Below, one piece after another: positions 1 to 10,249 of a stretch of 45,751 nt of DNA (positions are counted from its first letter, which is position 1; each line of letters starts with the position of its first letter). The stretch spans positions 1 to 45,751 of the forward strand of contig CAJXND010000013.1 of the NCBI GenBank assembly GCA_913056385.1, written 5' to 3'. Both the position numbers and the translations under genes were made by a program. Under the pieces are notes generated by a model. It had not been told where the DNA came from and did not search any database. It saw only the letters and a list, made by a program, of their open reading frames with translations. Source of the DNA: an uncultured Ectothiorhodospiraceae bacterium. GTDB lineage: Bacteria > Pseudomonadota > Gammaproteobacteria > Nitrococcales > Nitrococcaceae.

Positions 1-956
1 CAGACCATGAGCATGTCGAGATGCTCGTCGATGGTGTTGCGGGTGTAGGGCCGCGTGGGGTTGGTGGACGACGGCAGGACATTGCTCTCGCCGCAGGCCC
101 GGATGATATCCGGCGCGTGACCGCCGCCGGCACCCTCCGTGTGGTAGGTGTGAATGGTGCGCCCCTTGAACGCGGCAATAGTGTCCTCGACGAATCCCGA
201 CTCGTTCAGCGTGTCGGTATGAATGGCCACCTGAATGTCGTGCTCATCCGCCACGGTGAGCGCGTTATCAATGGCCGCAGGAGTCGTCCCCCAGTCCTCG
301 TGCAGCTTGAGCCCCATGGCGCCCGCCGCGATCTGCTCATGCAGGGAATCCGGGAGACTCGCGTTGCCCTTGCCCATGAACCCCAGGTTCATGGGAAAGG
401 CATCCGCCGCCTCCAGCATTCGCTCGATGTTCCACACGCCGGGTGTACAGGTGGTGGCGTTTGTCCCCGTGGCGGGCCCGGTGCCACCACCCAGCATGGT
501 GGTCACCCCGGACATCAGCGCCTCCTCAATCTGCTGCGGGCAGATGAAGTGGATATGGGCGTCGATCCCCCCGGCCGTCACGATGCTGCCCTCGGCGGCG
601 AGCACCTCAGTGCCCGGACCCACCACGATATCCACAGCCGGCTGGGTATCCGGGTTGCCGGCCTTGCCGATGCCGTGGATCCGGCCGTTGCGGATACCGA
701 TATCGGCCTTGATCACACCGCGATAATCCAGGATGACGGCATTGGTGATGACCAGATCCACCGCCTCGTGACCGGCCGCCTGGCTCTGGCCCATGCCATC
801 GCGGATGACCTTGCCACCGCCGAATTTCACCTCATCGCCATAACGCGTGTGGTCGCGTTCGACCTCGATGATCAGCTCGGTATCACCCAGACGCACCCGG
901 TCGCCCTGGGTGGGCCCGTACATCTCGGCGTAGGCGTCGCGTGGGATGGACGTCAT
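1..956 (-). CDS. ureC: Urease alpha (catalytic) subunit, 3'-truncated by window edge
   Basis: UreC carries the di-nickel centre that hydrolyses urea to ammonia and carbamate in the cytoplasm. About 318 N-terminal residues of a family usually near 567 are visible. It begins at an ATG overlapping the ureB stop (ATGA) and reads [16 protein letters not shown]. Visible hallmarks are the metal-binding His-x-His segment (GGIDAHIHF-like), the stretch GLKLHEDWG containing the lysine that is carbamylated to bridge the nickels, and [10 protein letters not shown] and [14 protein letters not shown] with further metal and substrate histidines. The window ends just before the mobile-flap Cys/His pair (CHH), so the catalytic acid cannot be inspected. 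It is the last gene visible in the operon; the accessory genes ureE, ureF and ureG would be expected further left. The family assignment is essentially certain. Confidence 0.97.
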
Positions 957-1261
957 GACAGTTCCCCCATGATCTGGCCGCGGAAGCCATACACCCGGCG
1001 CGCGCCGGCATAGGCGACCAGCTGGACGTCGCGGGACTGGCCCGGCTCGAAGCGAACCGCCGTCCCGGCGGCGATATCCAGCCGATAGCCCACCGCCGCC
1101 TCGCGGTCGAAGGACAGGGCGGGGTTCACCTCGTGGAAGTGATAGTGCGAGCCGACCTGCACGGGCCGGTCGCCGGTGTTGGCGATCCGCAGCGTGATCC
1201 GCTCGCGGTCGCGATTGATCTCGATTTCACCGGGGTCCGTGAGAATCTCGCCGGGAATCAT
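953..1261 (-). CDS. ureB: Urease beta subunit
   Basis: This is the small structural beta subunit of the bacterial three-chain urease (UreABC), which packs around UreC as part of the holoenzyme. It is 102 residues, the usual length. It starts MIPGEI and contains the family-typical segments [19 protein letters not shown] and [12 protein letters not shown]. Its ATG overlaps the ureA stop and its own stop overlaps the ureC start, both as ATGA, so the three structural subunits are translationally coupled, consistent with equal stoichiometry. Nothing is degenerate or unusual. Confidence 0.96.
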
Positions 1262-1593
1262 GAGCGGACCTCCTGCAGGACGGGCCCCGTCTCGGCGATG
1301 GGGTCATGGATGGTGACGAGCTTGGTGCCATCGGGGAATGTAGCCTCGACCTGCACCTCCCTGAGTATCTCGGGGATACCGTCCATGACCTGGGATCGAT
1401 CCAGAAGACGGGTGCCTTCACTCATCAATTCGGCGACGGTACGACCGTCACGCGCCCCTTCAACGACGGCATTGGCGATATACGCCATGGCCTCGGGATA
1501 ATTCAGCCGCACCCCGCGCTGCAGGCGTCGTTCGGCGACCATCGCAGCCGTGGCAAGCATCAGCTTGTCCTTCTCGCGTGGTGTCAGTTCCAT
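1258..1593 (-). CDS. ureA: Urease gamma subunit
   Basis: This is the gamma structural subunit of urease, 111 residues against about 100 in most orthologues. The start [13 protein letters not shown] and the internal [14 protein letters not shown] and DGRTVAELM are diagnostic. A clean Shine-Dalgarno (AGGAG, five bases before the ATG) overlaps the end of ureD, whose stop lies only nine bases upstream. Initiation is therefore probably helped by ribosomes finishing ureD. The operon order D-A-B-C matches the Klebsiella-type urease cluster. Confidence 0.96.
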
Positions 1594-1602
1594 GAGATCT
1601 CC

Positions 1603-2457
1603 TCAGGTATTCCAGATCCGTGGCGGACAGGCCGGTCGATCGAGCAACCGTGGACGCAGGGCGGCCCAGGCCCGTGCCCGGAGCTGATAGCCCTCCAGGG
1701 CGCCCGGGCCCCGCCAGCGCAGGACCAGCAGGTCGTCCAGGCCGGTGACGGCGACCTCGCCCGGCACGCCGACCAACGCCTCGCGCAGGGCCGTAATGTC
1801 ATCTGCAGTCGCCGGTGATGCCACCAGCGTTGCCATCGCCTGATGCCCGCCAAGCCCCCAGGGCGCCGTCATCGCCATGCCGCCGCCGTCGAGGCGCGCA
1901 TGTTCCAGCAGCAGCGGTGTCCCGTTGCGCCAGACCTCCAGGCGTTGGCGGAAGCGCCCATGATCGAATGGCTGGGTACTGGCCGGCCGGCCAAAGCAGT
2001 TCAGTTCCCAGCCCAGCACATGGGCGCCCGACGCCAGTTCGAAACAGGTCCGTGACGAGACGATCGCACCGGGAAAGGCGATCTGCTCCTGAGGGAGCCA
2101 CTCCATGACGCCACCGGGCGCGATGCGGATTCGTTGCTCGACCCGGGCCTCACCGCCGAGACTGCGATAGAACTTGGTGGCACCCGGGCTCGTGATCACC
2201 GCCCAGGCGTTGGACCCGACGTCGATGCCCACATCGAGCTCATCCCCACCGACGACCCCGCCGGGCGGATGCAGCAGATAGCTGTGACAGGGCGCCCCCT
2301 CGGGATGGAACGGTCGCTGAACGCGCAGCGGACCCTCGTGGCGACGGTCGCTGACCACCGATCGGTGGCCATGCGCGGTGTAGCCGAGTCGGAGTTTTGC
2401 CTGCCAGCCTGTCCGCCGAAAGCGGGCGGGCGTATTCTCCACGGCAACAACGCCCAT
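1603..2457 (-). CDS. ureD: Urease accessory protein UreD
   Basis: UreD (UreH) is the scaffold chaperone that binds apo-urease and recruits UreF and UreG for GTP-dependent nickel insertion. It is 284 residues, a normal length. Recognisable segments are LHPPGGVVGGDELDVGIDVG, TSPGATKFYRS and GGVMEWLPQEQIAFPGA, all typical of the family's beta-helical core. The ATG overlaps the stop of the upstream small membrane gene by one base (TGATG), so the two are coupled. The predicted start has no strong Shine-Dalgarno of its own, in keeping with coupling. The remaining accessory genes are not in view. Confidence 0.94.
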   Translation of the reverse strand: MGVVAVENTPARFRRTGWQAKLRLGYTAHGHRSVVSDRRHEGPLRVQRPFHPEGAPCHSYLLHPPGGVVGGDELDVGIDVGSNAWAVITSPGATKFYRSLGGEARVEQRIRIAPGGVMEWLPQEQIAFPGAIVSSRTCFELASGAHVLGWELNCFGRPASTQPFDHGRFRQRLEVWRNGTPLLLEHARLDGGGMAMTAPWGLGGHQAMATLVASPATADDITALREALVGVPGEVAVTGLDDLLVLRWRGPGALEGYQLRARAWAALRPRLLDRPACPPRIWNT

Positions 2458-2768
2458 CAGACGATGCCGATGACCAGCCCGGAACCGGCCAGCGCCAGTG
2501 CTGCCGAAAGGCTACCGAAGGTAAGCAGCGCGGGCCGTGAGCGCCGGGCAATGAACCGGGCCACGCCGATGGCAAGGGACAGGGCGGCGAGCGTGAGCAT
2601 CGCGACCCCCAGCATGGATGCCGGAATGCCCAGTACCAGCCCCGAGTGCGCCTCATGCCAATGCAGTAGCATGGGGCCATGGTCGATGCCGCCGGTGGCA
2701 TGGGCCACGGCCAACCCCGGGGCTGCCAGCATGACCAGGGTCGGGAGTATGGATCGCAGCTTCATCAT
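2457..2768 (-). CDS. Small exported His-rich membrane protein leading the urease operon
   Basis: This is a 103-residue protein of unrecognised family. I start it at the ATG at 2768 because an AAGGAAG ribosome site lies directly upstream and the N-terminus then reads as a signal peptide (MMKLRSILPTLVML...AVAHA). A longer reading frame extends upstream but lacks such signals. After the predicted cleavage site comes a short histidine-containing stretch (HATGGIDHGPMLLHWHEAHSG), then two hydrophobic helices separated by the basic loop RFIARRSRP. Its stop overlaps the ureD start, and it is the first gene after the sigma-54 promoter. By position it may act in nickel or urea handling. It is much shorter than HupE/UreJ nickel permeases and I do not see their motifs, so function is open. 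Confidence 0.7.
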   Translation of the reverse strand: MMKLRSILPTLVMLAAPGLAVAHATGGIDHGPMLLHWHEAHSGLVLGIPASMLGVAMLTLAALSLAIGVARFIARRSRPALLTFGSLSAALALAGSGLVIGIV

Positions 2769-2807
2769 CGCTTCCTTTTCGGTTGCCTCGGAACTCGGCC
2801 TCCCTTG

Positions 2808-2823
2808 AGCAAGGCCCGTGCCA
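2808..2823 (-). promoter_or_regulatory. Sigma-54 (RpoN) -24/-12 promoter of the urease operon
   Basis: On the minus strand the sequence reads TGGCACGGGCCTTGCT, an exact match to the sigma-54 consensus TGGCAC-N5-TTGC. The predicted transcription start is near 2797, about 29 bases before the first ATG of the operon. Sigma-54 promoters need an enhancer-binding activator, and two NtrC-like boxes sit upstream at suitable distances. No competing sigma-70 promoter of similar quality is evident. Confidence 0.85.
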
Positions 2824-2853
2824 TGTTGGAAAGTTGGGGAAGAAACAAGCGCT

Positions 2854-2870
2854 TGCACGATAGCGGTGCG
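2854..2870. promoter_or_regulatory. NtrC-like enhancer box, proximal
   Basis: TGCACG-ATAGC-GGTGCG matches the palindromic NtrC consensus TGCACC-N5-GGTGCA at 10 of 12 defined positions. Its centre is about 65 bases upstream of the predicted sigma-54 start. It is paired with a better box 44 bases further upstream, roughly four helical turns away, so both would lie on one face of the DNA. Confidence 0.6.
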
Positions 2871-2897
2871 CGCCGCACCGAGACCGGGCGGATGCCA

Positions 2898-2914
2898 TGC
2901 ACCACCATGGTTCA
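2898..2914. promoter_or_regulatory. NtrC-like enhancer box, distal
   Basis: TGCACC-ACCAT-GGTTCA matches the NtrC consensus at 11 of 12 defined positions. It is centred about 109 bases upstream of the predicted urease transcription start, a typical enhancer distance. It also lies about 70 bases upstream of the divergent D-amino-acid dehydrogenase gene, so it might influence both directions. Confidence 0.65.
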
Positions 2915-2980
2915 CGCCAGAGGGGCACCGCCCAAAATCGGGGCGGGGACAAATTTATGGCGGCTTTTCGAGGAGGCTGC

Positions 2981-4246
2981 GTGCACATCACGGTGATTGG
3001 TGGCGGCCTGGTCGGTGTGACCACCGCCTGGTATCTGCTGGACGGGGGCCACTCGGTGACCCTGGTGGATCGGGCCGAAGAGCTGGCATCGGAGGCAAGC
3101 CACGCCAACGGCGCCATGCTGCATGCCAGTCATGCCGAGCCCTGGAACACACCGCGGGCGATCGGTCAGTTCCTGCGCTGGATCGGCCGGGAGGATTCGC
3201 CGCTGCTGCTGCGCCCGCGGGAAATTCCGCGTCTCGCCGGCTGGGGCCTGGGATTCCTGCGTTACAGCCGTGCCCGACACCACGCCCGCAACACGGCGGT
3301 CAACGCACGCCTGGCCGTGTACAGCCTCGCCCTGATGCGTGAGCTCGAGCAGCAGGTCGCCATCGACTACACCCAGCGTCACCAGGGCATACTCAAGATC
3401 TTCCGCAGCGCGGAGGAACTCGAGACAGCCCGCGCCGACAGCGCGCTCATGGCAACGGCAGCCGGAGTCAGGCACGAGGCGCTGGGGCCGGAGCAGGTCG
3501 TCGAACGTGAGCCGGCACTGGCGGGCATCGAAAGTGATCTGAGCGGCGGCTTCTACTATCCGGATGACGCCAGCGGCGACGCGCGGCTGTTCTGCCAGCG
3601 CCTGGGGACCCTTGCCGCCGAACGAGGCCTCGATCTGCGACTGGGCGAATCCGTCCGGCAGCTGAACCGCCACGACGGGCGGATACGTTCCATCGAGACC
3701 GACACCGGCACCATCGAGGCCGATGTATTCGTGCTCGCCACCGGCGCGGAAGCGCCGCATCTGGCCAGCCAGGCGGGCGTGCGCCTGCCAATTCGGCCAG
3801 TGAAGGGCTACTCCGCGACATTGCCCGTCGCCGGGCTGGCGGGCGCGCCCCGTCTGCCCATCATCGATGACGGACGCAAGGTGGTGATTACGCGACTGGG
3901 CGACCAGCTGCGCATCGCCGGCACAGCGGAGTTCGCCGGCTACGACAAGAGCGTCCGGCCGAATCGGGTGGAGACCGTCCTGCGCCAGGGCCTTGCCAAT
4001 TTCCCCGCGCTGGCCGCGGAAGTGGATACGGCCACGGCGGACCGCTGGGCCTGTCTGCGCCCGATGACCATGGACGGACCGCCGATCCTCGGCGAGAGTG
4101 GTATTCCCGGGCTCTACCTCAACACGGGGGCTGGTCATCTGGGCTGGACCTTCGCAGCCGGGGCCGGCCGCCTGGTTGCTGATATGATCAGCGGCCAGGT
4201 GCCCGCAATCGACACGACGGGGCTCACGCTGGATCGATACGGCTAG
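2981..4246 (+). CDS. dadA: D-amino-acid dehydrogenase / DadA-like FAD oxidoreductase
   Basis: This is an FAD-dependent oxidoreductase of the DAO family, most like DadA, which deaminates D-amino acids and passes electrons to the respiratory chain. The frame is open further upstream, but I choose the GTG at 2981. AGGAGG lies four bases before it, and the product then starts with the FAD dinucleotide fold (ITVIGGGLVGVTTAWYL...VTLVDR), as DadA does. Length is 421 residues against about 430 for DadA. The C-terminus has the conserved WACLRPMTMDGPPILGES and LNTGAGHLGWTFA segments that bind FAD. An alternative ATG lies at 2957. Divergence from the urease operon places two nitrogen-releasing functions around shared NtrC-like sites. 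Exact substrate is inferred. Confidence 0.8.
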   Translation: MHITVIGGGLVGVTTAWYLLDGGHSVTLVDRAEELASEASHANGAMLHASHAEPWNTPRAIGQFLRWIGREDSPLLLRPREIPRLAGWGLGFLRYSRARHHARNTAVNARLAVYSLALMRELEQQVAIDYTQRHQGILKIFRSAEELETARADSALMATAAGVRHEALGPEQVVEREPALAGIESDLSGGFYYPDDASGDARLFCQRLGTLAAERGLDLRLGESVRQLNRHDGRIRSIETDTGTIEADVFVLATGAEAPHLASQAGVRLPIRPVKGYSATLPVAGLAGAPRLPIIDDGRKVVITRLGDQLRIAGTAEFAGYDKSVRPNRVETVLRQGLANFPALAAEVDTATADRWACLRPMTMDGPPILGESGIPGLYLNTGAGHLGWTFAAGAGRLVADMISGQVPAIDTTGLTLDRYG

Positions 4247-6926: not shown

Positions 6927-7003
<77 letters not shown>

Positions 7004-7111: not shown

Positions 7112-10100
7112 ATGATTGCGCGCATCCCGCCTGACAGAACAGACGCCATTCACAGCGACGCGGCCGCTTTCCTTGATGCGCTGCCCGCGGCGGGATTCAG
7201 GGGCGAGATCGGCCGGACTCATGGCCATCGCACGGTACTGGCCACCGACAACTCCATCTACCAGCGTCTTCCCCAGGCCGTGGTGTACCCGCGCGATGCG
7301 GACGACCTGCAGCGAATCGCCCGGCTGGCGGGTGACCCCAACCATCGGTCGGTGACGCTGGCACCGCGCGGCGGTGGCACCGGCACCAACGGGCAGTCGC
7401 TGACCAACGGCATCGTGATCGACACCGCCCGGCACATGAACCGGATCCTCGCCATCGATCCGGCGCGGCGCCGGGTCCGCGTCGAGGCCGGCGTCGTGAA
7501 GGACCAGCTCAATGCCGCGCTGCGGCCCCATGGCCTGTTCTTCGCGCCCGAGCTCTCCACTTCGAATCGAGCCACCATCGGCGGCATGGTGGCCACTGAT
7601 GCCAGCGGTCAGGGAAGCTGTGAATACGGCAAGACACGGGATCATGTCCTTTCCATCGACGCCTTCCTGATCGGCGGGGAACGGCTCACTGCGGAACCCG
7701 TGGAAGACGAGGATCTCGGGGCCCTCTGCGGGCGTGATGACGCCATCGGCCGGATTTATCGCTGCGCGCGCACCATCCATGATGAGCAGCGGGCGCTGAT
7801 TGATTCGGTGTTCCCCCCGCTGAATCGCTGCCTGACCGGCTACGATCTTGCCCATCTGCGCGACGATCGCGGCCGGCTGGATCTGAGCAGCCTCCTCTGC
7901 GGCGCGGAAGGGACGCTGGCCCTGACCAGCGAGATCACCCTGAATGTCCTCCCCATCCCCGCGCATACCGCACTGGTGAATATCCGCTATGCCGGGTTCA
8001 TGGATGCCCTGCGCGATGCCCGACCGATCATGGATGGCGATGCCGAACCGACTTCCGTGGAAACGGTGGACGAGACGGTCCTCGCACTTGCCCGGGAGGA
8101 TTTCATCTGGACCGACGTCGCCGAATTCTTCCCCGACGGTGTAGCCGCCGCCAGCGGAATCAACCTGGTGGAGTTCAACGATGACAACGCCGGGCGGCTG
8201 TCCCATCGCATCGAGCGCTTCTGCCGCCAACTCTCCGCCCATGACGACCGGGGGCGCATTGGCTATACCGTGGCCGACCGCCCCGAGGCGATTCGGCGGA
8301 TCTACGCCATGCGCAAGCGAGCGGTGGGATTGCTCGGTAATGCCAGCGGTGAAGCACGCCCGGTGGCCTTCGTCGAAGACACCGCGGTGCCACCGGAGCA
8401 CCTGGCCAGTTACGTCAGCGAGTTTCGGGACATTCTCGATGCAAGGGGCCTGTCCTACGGCATGTTCGGCCATGTCGATGCCGGCGTCCTGCATGTCCGC
8501 CCGGCACTGGACCTCAAGGATCCGGCGCAGGAGGGACTCGTGCGCGAGGTATCGGATGCGGTGGCGGCACTGACAAGGCGCTACAACGGCCTGCTCTGGG
8601 GAGAGCATGGCAAGGGCGTACGCTCGGAATACGCGCCGGCCTTCTTCGGCGCCCTCTACCCCTGTCTTCGCCAGATCAAGGCGGCTTTCGACCCGCATAA
8701 CCAGCTCAACCCCGGCAAGATCGCCACCCCGGCCCCCGCACCGGCGCCGGGGGACCATGTCGCGACCCACGACCCGGGCCTGGATCGCATTGATGGTGTC
8801 ACAACCCGCGGTCAGCTGGACCGGACGATCCCGGCGGAGGTCCGCGCACTCTACCCCGACGCCCTGCACTGCAACGGCAATGGCGCCTGCTACAACTACG
8901 ATGTGGATGACCCGATGTGCCCGTCGTGGAAAGCCACCCGCGACCGCATTCACTCGCCCAAGGGACGGGCCGGGCTGATGCGGGAATGGCTGCGTCTGCA
9001 GCAGGCTGCCGGCGTCGATCTGGCCGAGCAGACCCGGCGCCGCCGGCGCGAGGGACCGATGGGCTTCCTGGGGCGATTGCCGCAGCGCCTTGCCAATACC
9101 CGAGCCGCCCGGCGCGGAGAGGCAGACTTCTCCCATGAGGTGCACCAGGCCATGGCCGGTTGCCTTGCCTGTAATGCCTGTGGCGGACAGTGCCCGGTCA
9201 AGGTCAGTGTGCCCGGCTTTCGCGCCGCGTTTCTCGAGCTCTACCACGATCGCTATCTGCGGCCTCTGCGGGACTATTTCATTGCCGGTCTGGAGGCCCT
9301 GCTACCGATCATGGCCCGCGTGGCCCCGCTGTATAACGCAGTGGTCCGCTCAGACCGGGTTCAGGGATGGATGCAGCAGCGCATCGGCCTCGCCGATCCG
9401 CCGCGTCTGTCGCGCCGGCGGCTGGCACGGGATCCGCGCTGGCGGTTGGCAACGACGGCCAGCCCATCGGCACTGGCCCGGCTCGGCGAAGAGGAGAGAC
9501 GCCGCAGCGTGATCCTGGTGCAGGATGCCTTCACGACGCATTTCGAAGCCGAACTGGTCGGCGATACCATCGAACTGCTGACGCGCCTCGGGGCGCCGGT
9601 CTACGTGGCCCGGTACCGGCCTGCCGGCAAACCGCTCCATGTGCATGGGTTCCTCGGCGCCTTCCGGCGCACGGCATCGCGGCAGGCCCGATATCTCCGG
9701 AGCCTGGCGGCAAGCGGCGTGCCGCTTGTGGGCATCGATCCCGCCATGACACTGATCTATCGCAAGGATTACCCGCAGGCGATCGGCGAAGAGGCGGCGC
9801 CCGGGGTCTCGCTGCTGCCGGAATGGCTTGGCCACCATCTCGCGGAACTGGACATCCCGGACCTCTCCGACCATGACCCCGGGTTCCGGCTCCTCGGCCA
9901 CTGCACCGAGAAGACCGGTGCGCCGACGGCGATCGCGGACTGGCAGCGTGTCTTCGGCGCATTCGGCCTCGCCCTGGACGCCGTCGCCACCGGTTGCTGC
10001 GGCATGTCCGGCACCTACGGACACGAGTCCCGCAACCTGGAAACCTCCCGGATAATCTACGGCCAGTCCTGGCGTGGTGTCGTCGAGGCACCGCAGAATC

Positions 10101-10249
10101 GCGGGCGATTGCTGGCGACCGGCTACTCCTGCCGCAGCCAGGTCCGACGCCTGTCGGACAGGGACATCCCCCATCCGCTGCAGGGGCTGCTGGCGCTGAT
10201 CCGCGAGACGGGTGCCCGAGCATATGCCGAGGGTCGATTGCGCTGGTAA
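7112..10249 (+). CDS. ydiJ: D-2-hydroxyglutarate dehydrogenase, YdiJ-type FAD/Fe-S protein
   Basis: A 1045-residue multidomain flavoprotein matching E. coli YdiJ (1018 residues) in length and order. It oxidises D-2-hydroxyglutarate, a by-product of serine synthesis, to 2-oxoglutarate. The N-terminal FAD_binding_4 domain includes the closely conserved APRGGGTGTNGQSL and FFAPELSTSNRATIGGM. An FAD-oxidase C-terminal domain follows. A cysteine cluster lies near residue 586 (HCNGNGACYNYDVDDPMCP), and an Fe-S motif near residue 683 reads CLACNACGGQCPVKV. A CCG-type domain near residue 959 contains ATGCCGMSGTYGHE. The ATG follows GGATG with seven bases of spacing. It is 44 bases upstream of the deacetylase gene, so an operon is plausible. 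Confidence 0.93.
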   Translation: MIARIPPDRTDAIHSDAAAFLDALPAAGFRGEIGRTHGHRTVLATDNSIYQRLPQAVVYPRDADDLQRIARLAGDPNHRSVTLAPRGGGTGTNGQSLTNGIVIDTARHMNRILAIDPARRRVRVEAGVVKDQLNAALRPHGLFFAPELSTSNRATIGGMVATDASGQGSCEYGKTRDHVLSIDAFLIGGERLTAEPVEDEDLGALCGRDDAIGRIYRCARTIHDEQRALIDSVFPPLNRCLTGYDLAHLRDDRGRLDLSSLLCGAEGTLALTSEITLNVLPIPAHTALVNIRYAGFMDALRDARPIMDGDAEPTSVETVDETVLALAREDFIWTDVAEFFPDGVAAASGINLVEFNDDNAGRLSHRIERFCRQLSAHDDRGRIGYTVADRPEAIRRIYAMRKRAVGLLGNASGEARPVAFVEDTAVPPEHLASYVSEFRDILDARGLSYGMFGHVDAGVLHVRPALDLKDPAQEGLVREVSDAVAALTRRYNGLLWGEHGKGVRSEYAPAFFGALYPCLRQIKAAFDPHNQLNPGKIATPAPAPAPGDHVATHDPGLDRIDGVTTRGQLDRTIPAEVRALYPDALHCNGNGACYNYDVDDPMCPSWKATRDRIHSPKGRAGLMREWLRLQQAAGVDLAEQTRRRRREGPMGFLGRLPQRLANTRAARRGEADFSHEVHQAMAGCLACNACGGQCPVKVSVPGFRAAFLELYHDRYLRPLRDYFIAGLEALLPIMARVAPLYNAVVRSDRVQGWMQQRIGLADPPRLSRRRLARDPRWRLATTASPSALARLGEEERRRSVILVQDAFTTHFEAELVGDTIELLTRLGAPVYVARYRPAGKPLHVHGFLGAFRRTASRQARYLRSLAASGVPLVGIDPAMTLIYRKDYPQAIGEEAAPGVSLLPEWLGHHLAELDIPDLSDHDPGFRLLGHCTEKTGAPTAIADWQRVFGAFGLALDAVATGCCGMSGTYGHESRNLETSRIIYGQSWRGVVEAPQNRGRLLATGYSCRSQVRRLSDRDIPHPLQGLLALIRETGARAYAEGRLRW

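Follow-up and report, generated by a model that had tools for sequence, protein, structure and literature searches.

The urease genes at the start of the window, that is, the whole stretch of 45,751 nucleotides analysed here, which is the entire contig C13 of an uncultured Ectothiorhodospiraceae bacterium belonging to Spiribacter (assembly GCA_913056385.1, contig CAJXND010000013.1), raise the question of which regulator switches them on and whether it acts on their promoter directly. The first-pass annotation had proposed direct control by NtrC and sigma-54, and this proposal is supported by boxes that share a consensus with those of the genome's own glnA and glnK genes, by the presence of ntrB, ntrC, and rpoN, and by conservation in the genus and in the order. 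On these grounds orf102-ureDABC(EFG) in Spiribacter is very probably transcribed from a sigma-54 promoter that NtrC activates from a pair of enhancer sites further upstream.

Putative promoter elements and the operon behind them

The candidate sigma-54 (-24/-12) promoter core, TGGCACGGGCCTTGC, lies at 2809..2823 on the minus strand, where the letters read TGGCAC-GGGCC-TTGC from 2823 to 2809; it contains the GG-N10-GC signature of sigma-54 (RpoN) promoters and agrees with TGGCAC-N5-TTGC at 10/10 positions, and the perfect element announced in the first-pass annotation is therefore borne out base for base. From the spacing to the -12 element, transcription is predicted to start at 2797 (minus strand), 32 nt upstream of the ATG at 2765. 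Two palindromes are located upstream, within the range of -50 to -220 from the core: the proximal NtrC-type box (2854..2870; TGCACG-ATAGC-GGTGCG on the plus strand) scores 10/12 and is centred at 2862, or -65 of the predicted start, and the distal box (2898..2914; TGCACC-ACCAT-GGTTCA) scores 11/12 and is centred at 2906, or -109. The two centres are 44 bp apart, corresponding to about 4.2 helical turns; scores, coordinates, positions near -65 and -109, and spacing all reproduce the earlier description with +1 at 2797. The NtrC consensus used for these scores is TGCACC-N5-GGTGCA, and its choice is supported by the glnA and glnK boxes of the same genome, which match it at 12/12 and 11/12.

The urease operon does stand behind this promoter, as had been claimed, except that its first gene is not ureD but orf102 (2457..2765, minus strand), encoding a His-rich membrane-like protein of 102 aa; the ribosome-binding site in front of its ATG at 2765 is good (AGGA, at a distance of 7 nt), and the ATG at 2768 is also possible. 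On the same strand follow ureD (1603..2448, in a frame open from 2457; PF01774, E 3.1e-53) for a urease accessory protein and, identified by profile matches, ureA (1258..1593) and ureB (953..1261) for the gamma and beta subunits; ureC (3..956), for the alpha subunit, is cut by the contig end, and the operon runs off the window inside it after its first 318 codons. The remaining part of ureC is found at the beginning of another contig of this genome, C27 (the ends of C13 and C27 share 77 identical bases), and is followed there by ureE, ureF, ureG, urtABCDE, yifB (on the opposite strand), glnK, and amt. In this series ureG, the PII protein gene glnK, urtA, urtB, and the ammonium transporter gene were named by profiles, while ureE, ureF, urtC-E, and yifB are presumed from their position and from resemblance; in two congeners with long contigs (G010 and G011) the searched genes have the same order as across C13 and C27.

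The protein encoded by orf102 has no Pfam or NCBIfam family match in the window, and a Pfam search with six orf102 sequences gave nothing below E 0.095; the gene heads the urease operon in 6/6 Spiribacter urease loci and its HWH motif is invariant. In two other genera (L066, L067) the gene before ureD is, by resemblance, presumably of the hupE/ureJ type, and because of this position orf102 may serve nickel delivery in place of such a gene. Two matches to Rfam models were also recorded in the window. One, to the 5' ureB small RNA (RF02514), lies at 521-807 on the plus strand, antisense to ureC, with 109.7 bits, recurs in L066 and L069, and probably only reflects the conserved ureC coding sequence; the other is a tRNA gene (6927-7000, plus strand; RF00005, 72.5 bits) just upstream of a D-2-hydroxyglutarate dehydrogenase gene (7112-10249).

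Rarity of the combination and the predicted nitrogen regulon of the genome

The sigma-54 core taken alone proves little, since the genome holds 7 perfect TGGCACN5TTGC elements against 3 for a reversed control and 34 relaxed cores against 26. Boxes of at least 10/12 number 128 genome-wide against 30 for the reversed control. The strict combination, defined as a perfect core with two boxes of at least 10/12 at -50..-220, occurred in 0/300 dinucleotide shuffles of the window and in 0/20,000 shuffles of the 215-bp intergenic stretch, and a core of at least 8/10 with two such boxes was found in 1/300 window shuffles. The loose combination, a core of at least 8/10 with one box of at least 10/12, is no proof by itself because 88/300 window shuffles contain one; on both strands of the real 45.7-kb window, the urease site is the only place where it occurs.

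The strongest single argument comes from the distribution of such sites in the genome. Among 34 matches to TGGCAY-N5-YTGC, a pattern that leaves out cores such as TGGCAA and of which two matches are so close to a contig end that fewer than 220 bp precede them, four have a box of at least 10/12 at -50..-220, and these four putative promoters all belong to ammonium- or urea-assimilation genes: glnA, ure, urtA, and glnK-amt. The last two are on contig C27, where the urtA core (L071 2763-2777, plus strand) has a 10/12 box at -130 and the glnK-amt core (L071 10507-10521, plus strand) an 11/12 box at -95; the glnA promoter has a 12/12 box at -130. Three of them (ure, urtA, and glnK-amt) are comprised within about 13 kb of chromosome. 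In enteric bacteria, glnA and glnK-amt have the classical NtrC/sigma-54 promoters, and the glnA and glnK-amt promoters of the present genome resemble that of ure in having a -24/-12 core, upstream boxes of the TGCACC-N5-GGTGCA type and, as predicted, the same regulator. They differ from it in that ure would drive urea hydrolysis, in the box positions, -130 and -95 as opposed to -109/-65, and in the core, which matches at 8/10 in both cases and at 10/10 in ure.

Two further genes are probable members of this nitrogen regulon. An amino-acid ABC substrate-binding gene (L004/L108; C16:14049-14063, minus strand), whose product resembles TIGR01096 below the cut-off, is preceded by a core identical to the urease 15-mer, with 9/12 boxes centred at -99 and -129. 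The other gene encodes a cytosine permease (L007/L125; C59:7579-7593, minus strand) and has a perfect core with one 9/12 box at -161. A few other sites have single 9/12 boxes, most of them inside reading frames.

The proteins needed by such promoters are encoded in the same genome. A genome profile search found one copy of rpoN (PF04552, E 7e-55), and on contig C10 both ntrB and ntrC score above the curated NCBIfam cut-offs, with NtrC directly after NtrB and glnA upstream of the pair; NtrC is present in 14/14 Spiribacter genomes. Nearly the entire DNA-binding domain of the host NtrC can be aligned with 1ntc, a solved structure of this domain (E 2.2e-17); the latter presumably carries alanine replacements in the recognition helix, where the host protein has R, N, and R, taken here to be the residues of the enteric wild type. 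Three further clear sigma-54 activators (NtrX-like, AtoC-like, and PrdR-like) are encoded as well, and members of this class can share similar palindromes; one of them might work the urease promoter, with boxes that merely resemble NtrC sites. This alternative is very unlikely, given that the boxes fit the consensus of the genome's own glnA and glnK boxes, that all four combined sites precede nitrogen genes, and that scrambled half-sites are without enrichment in the comparison of relatives described below.

Conservation, geometry, and neighbouring genes

A comparison of the upstream regions of related genomes, in line with the check by alignment proposed in the first-pass annotation, finds core and boxes kept both in the genus and in much of the order. 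UreD occurs in 6/14 Spiribacter genomes, several of the others being incomplete, and all six urease loci have a core of at least 9/10 with two boxes of at least 10/12 before orf102-ureD, together with a second putative promoter (core of at least 8/10, one box) before urtA. The distance between boxes is 44 bp in the present genome and in G010, 30 bp in G011, and 20 bp in G020, G014, and G012; because of this variation the exact layout does not appear to be under strict constraint, the wiring apparently being kept while the enhancer geometry drifts.

In the order, UreD is found in 23/51 genomes with 26 loci, 24 of which were counted, L093 and L097 being dropped as loci where the window UreD was not alignable. 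A locus was taken as positive with a core of at least 8/10 and a box of at least 10/12 upstream of ureD, over a scanned stretch of about 1.3 kb for most. The arrangement was present in 17/24 loci on the sense strand versus 1/24 on the antisense strand, and downstream of the ureD start in 1/24 and 0/24, respectively; shuffled upstream stretches gave a mean of 0.26 positives with a maximum of 3 in 200, and the true half-site TGCACC scored 17 where the other 119 of 120 permutations reached at most 4. The 17 positives come from 16 genomes in six genera and are related by descent rather than independent events; the 643-base stretches upstream in L027 and G020 are identical. As the source of the promoter pattern, a chance match was rejected on the basis of the half-site permutations and of the window and intergenic shuffles.

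The arrangement was absent from the scanned stretch in 7/24 loci, among which L090 (739 bp) and L094 (396 bp) have short stretches and were counted as misses; in two others, G002 and G008, it stands at the head of a longer operon, 3.3 and 3.7 kb further upstream. A wider set of named loci, which overlaps the order-level set, had 9/30 positives versus 1/30 antisense, and the loci of Pseudomonas, Thiohalocapsa, Vibrio, and Kushneria were negative; since some Pseudomonas urease is NtrC-dependent and these loci are nonetheless negative, real cases or other layouts escape the scan.

The longer operon of G002 and G008 includes a guanidine-I riboswitch (RF00442); in G002 it contains ABC-transporter and agmatinase-type ureohydrolase genes with profile matches below the curated cut-offs, and the counterpart genes of G008 were assigned by resemblance only. 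In two other genera of the family (L066 12642-12819 and L069 11357-11529, both on the minus strand), the guanidine-I riboswitch follows the NtrC/sigma-54-type promoter and precedes genes for an ABC transporter and a ureohydrolase-type protein, after which the urease genes come. A further sigma-54 core with NtrC boxes, of opposite orientation, points towards a gene for an ABC substrate-binding protein, which matches TIGR03427 in L069. Judged by its elements, the L066/L069 arrangement looks like a gate that would open upon nitrogen shortage AND guanidine.

The conservation of core and boxes also bears on a simpler reading, according to which most urease transcription comes from a sigma-70 (housekeeping) promoter or from read-through, with little contribution from the sigma-54 site, the support for this site consisting of consensus matches only. 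A sigma-70 scan of 2600-3100 returned 0 sites, a result of little power as shuffles also gave 0.0 on average. In contrast with this reading, the sigma-54 core and the boxes are conserved, and read-through is unlikely because the upstream gene is divergent, so that a housekeeping promoter or read-through as the main source is most improbable; it is considered, like a different sigma-54 activator, less likely than direct control by NtrC and sigma-54.

The divergent gene itself encodes a dadA-type D-amino acid dehydrogenase (2981..4246, plus strand; NF001933 above cut-off) and starts with the GTG at 2981, preceded by a Shine-Dalgarno-like GAGGAGG. That the distal box lies just upstream of it is correct, its centre being 75 bp from the dadA start codon, but dadA is not a constant partner: it adjoins the promoter in 2/6 Spiribacter urease loci (the present one and G010), and in the remaining 4/6 the boxes are present with no match to dadA in the retrieved sequence. 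In G011 kefC takes its place; for G020 and G012, the next frame upstream is a member of an asparaginase-like group (of these two copies, only that of G012 was run against the profile), and the frame of this group called in G014 is no more than a short one. Because the neighbour varies, the boxes do not seem to be kept for dadA. The boxes might nevertheless serve dadA as much as urease, with NtrC bound near 2906 repressing or activating it, an arrangement compatible with NtrC control of urease; the short distance, the same neighbourhood in G010, and the release of ammonia by D-amino acid breakdown speak for such a role, which is unlikely given that the window contains no combination of sigma-54 core and NtrC box directed towards dadA and that four loci have boxes and no dadA match. 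On the latter two grounds, service to dadA as the main function was rejected, and the gene is probably an incidental neighbour, likely outside the switch.

The proposed switch and known systems

As predicted from these sequence elements, the switch would operate as follows. Under nitrogen limitation NtrB would phosphorylate NtrC, dimers of NtrC~P would fill the boxes at -109 and -65 and then oligomerise, and looping of the DNA would bring them into contact with the sigma-54 holoenzyme waiting at -24/-12, the promoter being opened at the expense of ATP used by NtrC~P. The same circuit would drive the next transcription unit, urtABCDE, for urea uptake, as well as glnA and glnK-amt, and in this way the cell would switch on the import and hydrolysis of urea together with the assimilation of ammonium, with no need for a NAC relay. 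In enteric glnA, activation at high NtrC~P is reportedly restrained by weak low sites; the -65 box, which is near the promoter for an enhancer, might similarly act negatively under these conditions.

Spiribacter is a streamlined inhabitant of waters of intermediate salinity. According to passages of PMC3832224, its first two genomes are scarce in regulation; they encode sigma-54 and GlnLG, one of only two two-component systems, and the urease cluster lies on a genomic island of one of the two strains. The sigma-54 activators encoded in the genome analysed here outnumber those that these passages report for Spiribacter. A broader reading, tentative and with somewhat less than an even chance of being right, would regard the urea cluster as an accessory module with its own NtrC/sigma-54 promoters (orf102-ureD and urtABCDE), whose regulation travels with the genes into the core NtrBC/RpoN circuit of a streamlined halophile; it would include an enhancer geometry redrawn between lineages, two gene neighbourhoods of the cluster among Spiribacter species, and a guanidine/urea operon that two other genera of the family would gate (nitrogen shortage AND guanidine) by the NtrC/sigma-54 switch stacked on a guanidine-I riboswitch. 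For the physiology of the host, direct control by NtrC and sigma-54 would make the use of urea an immediate part of the NtrC regulon in Spiribacter and in some members of the order, and a shortage of nitrogen most probably makes the salt-loving host activate urea use with no relay in between. The glnA, glnK-amt, ure, and urt promoters would represent a small and clean set of candidate targets for following changes of geometry under constant wiring.

In Klebsiella, urease is induced under nitrogen limitation through NtrC, which activates NAC, and NAC in turn acts with sigma-70. The first-pass annotation had spoken of a different wiring, and this holds with respect to Klebsiella, where NtrC acts through NAC, whereas in Spiribacter the boxes and the sigma-54 core are at the urease promoter itself; it does not hold in general, since NtrC-dependent urease has been reported or predicted elsewhere, and the Klebsiella NAC case is not the general rule. 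Urea use in Rhodobacter capsulatus reportedly needs NtrC, and the NtrC of this bacterium works with sigma-70 polymerase; a link of urea use to NtrC would be common to both organisms, but a sigma-54 core is found in Spiribacter. On this regulation in R. capsulatus, PMC8443478 cites Masepohl et al. 2001.

In the available passages of the respective papers, urease genes fall in an ntrC mutant of Burkholderia cenocepacia H111, where urease is common to the NtrC and sigma-54 targets (PMC5491218), are apparently down in a table of an NtrBC study of Pseudomonas aeruginosa (PMC7214821), and fall in an ntrC mutant of P. stutzeri, in which a putative NtrC site precedes ureE (PMC8443478). The dependence of urease on NtrC predicted for Spiribacter has counterparts in these three, which belong to other lineages, and the site predicted in P. 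stutzeri stands before ureE, while that of Spiribacter is at the head of the ureD operon. Passages of a regulon reconstruction (PMC5343134) assign ureABC and urt to predicted NtrC regulons for Alteromonadales, Oceanospirillales, Rhizobiales, and Rhodobacterales, and those of a sigma-54 survey (PMC12316311) predict that sigma-54 governs urease COGs, for the most part in alpha- and betaproteobacteria; the available part of PMC9062700 yielded no statement about urease being controlled by NtrC. No published account of this promoter in this order was found in a search that had most subscription journals outside its range. The NtrC/sigma-54 wiring of urease is therefore of a kind already described in other bacteria, and with the NtrC-urease link known in other proteobacteria the surprise is limited. 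The predictions of PMC5343134 and PMC12316311 concern the same regulatory link and rest on the same kind of evidence as that used here; in comparison with them, whose available passages do not name the order of Spiribacter, the present analysis describes a putative promoter at the level of single bases and with controls.
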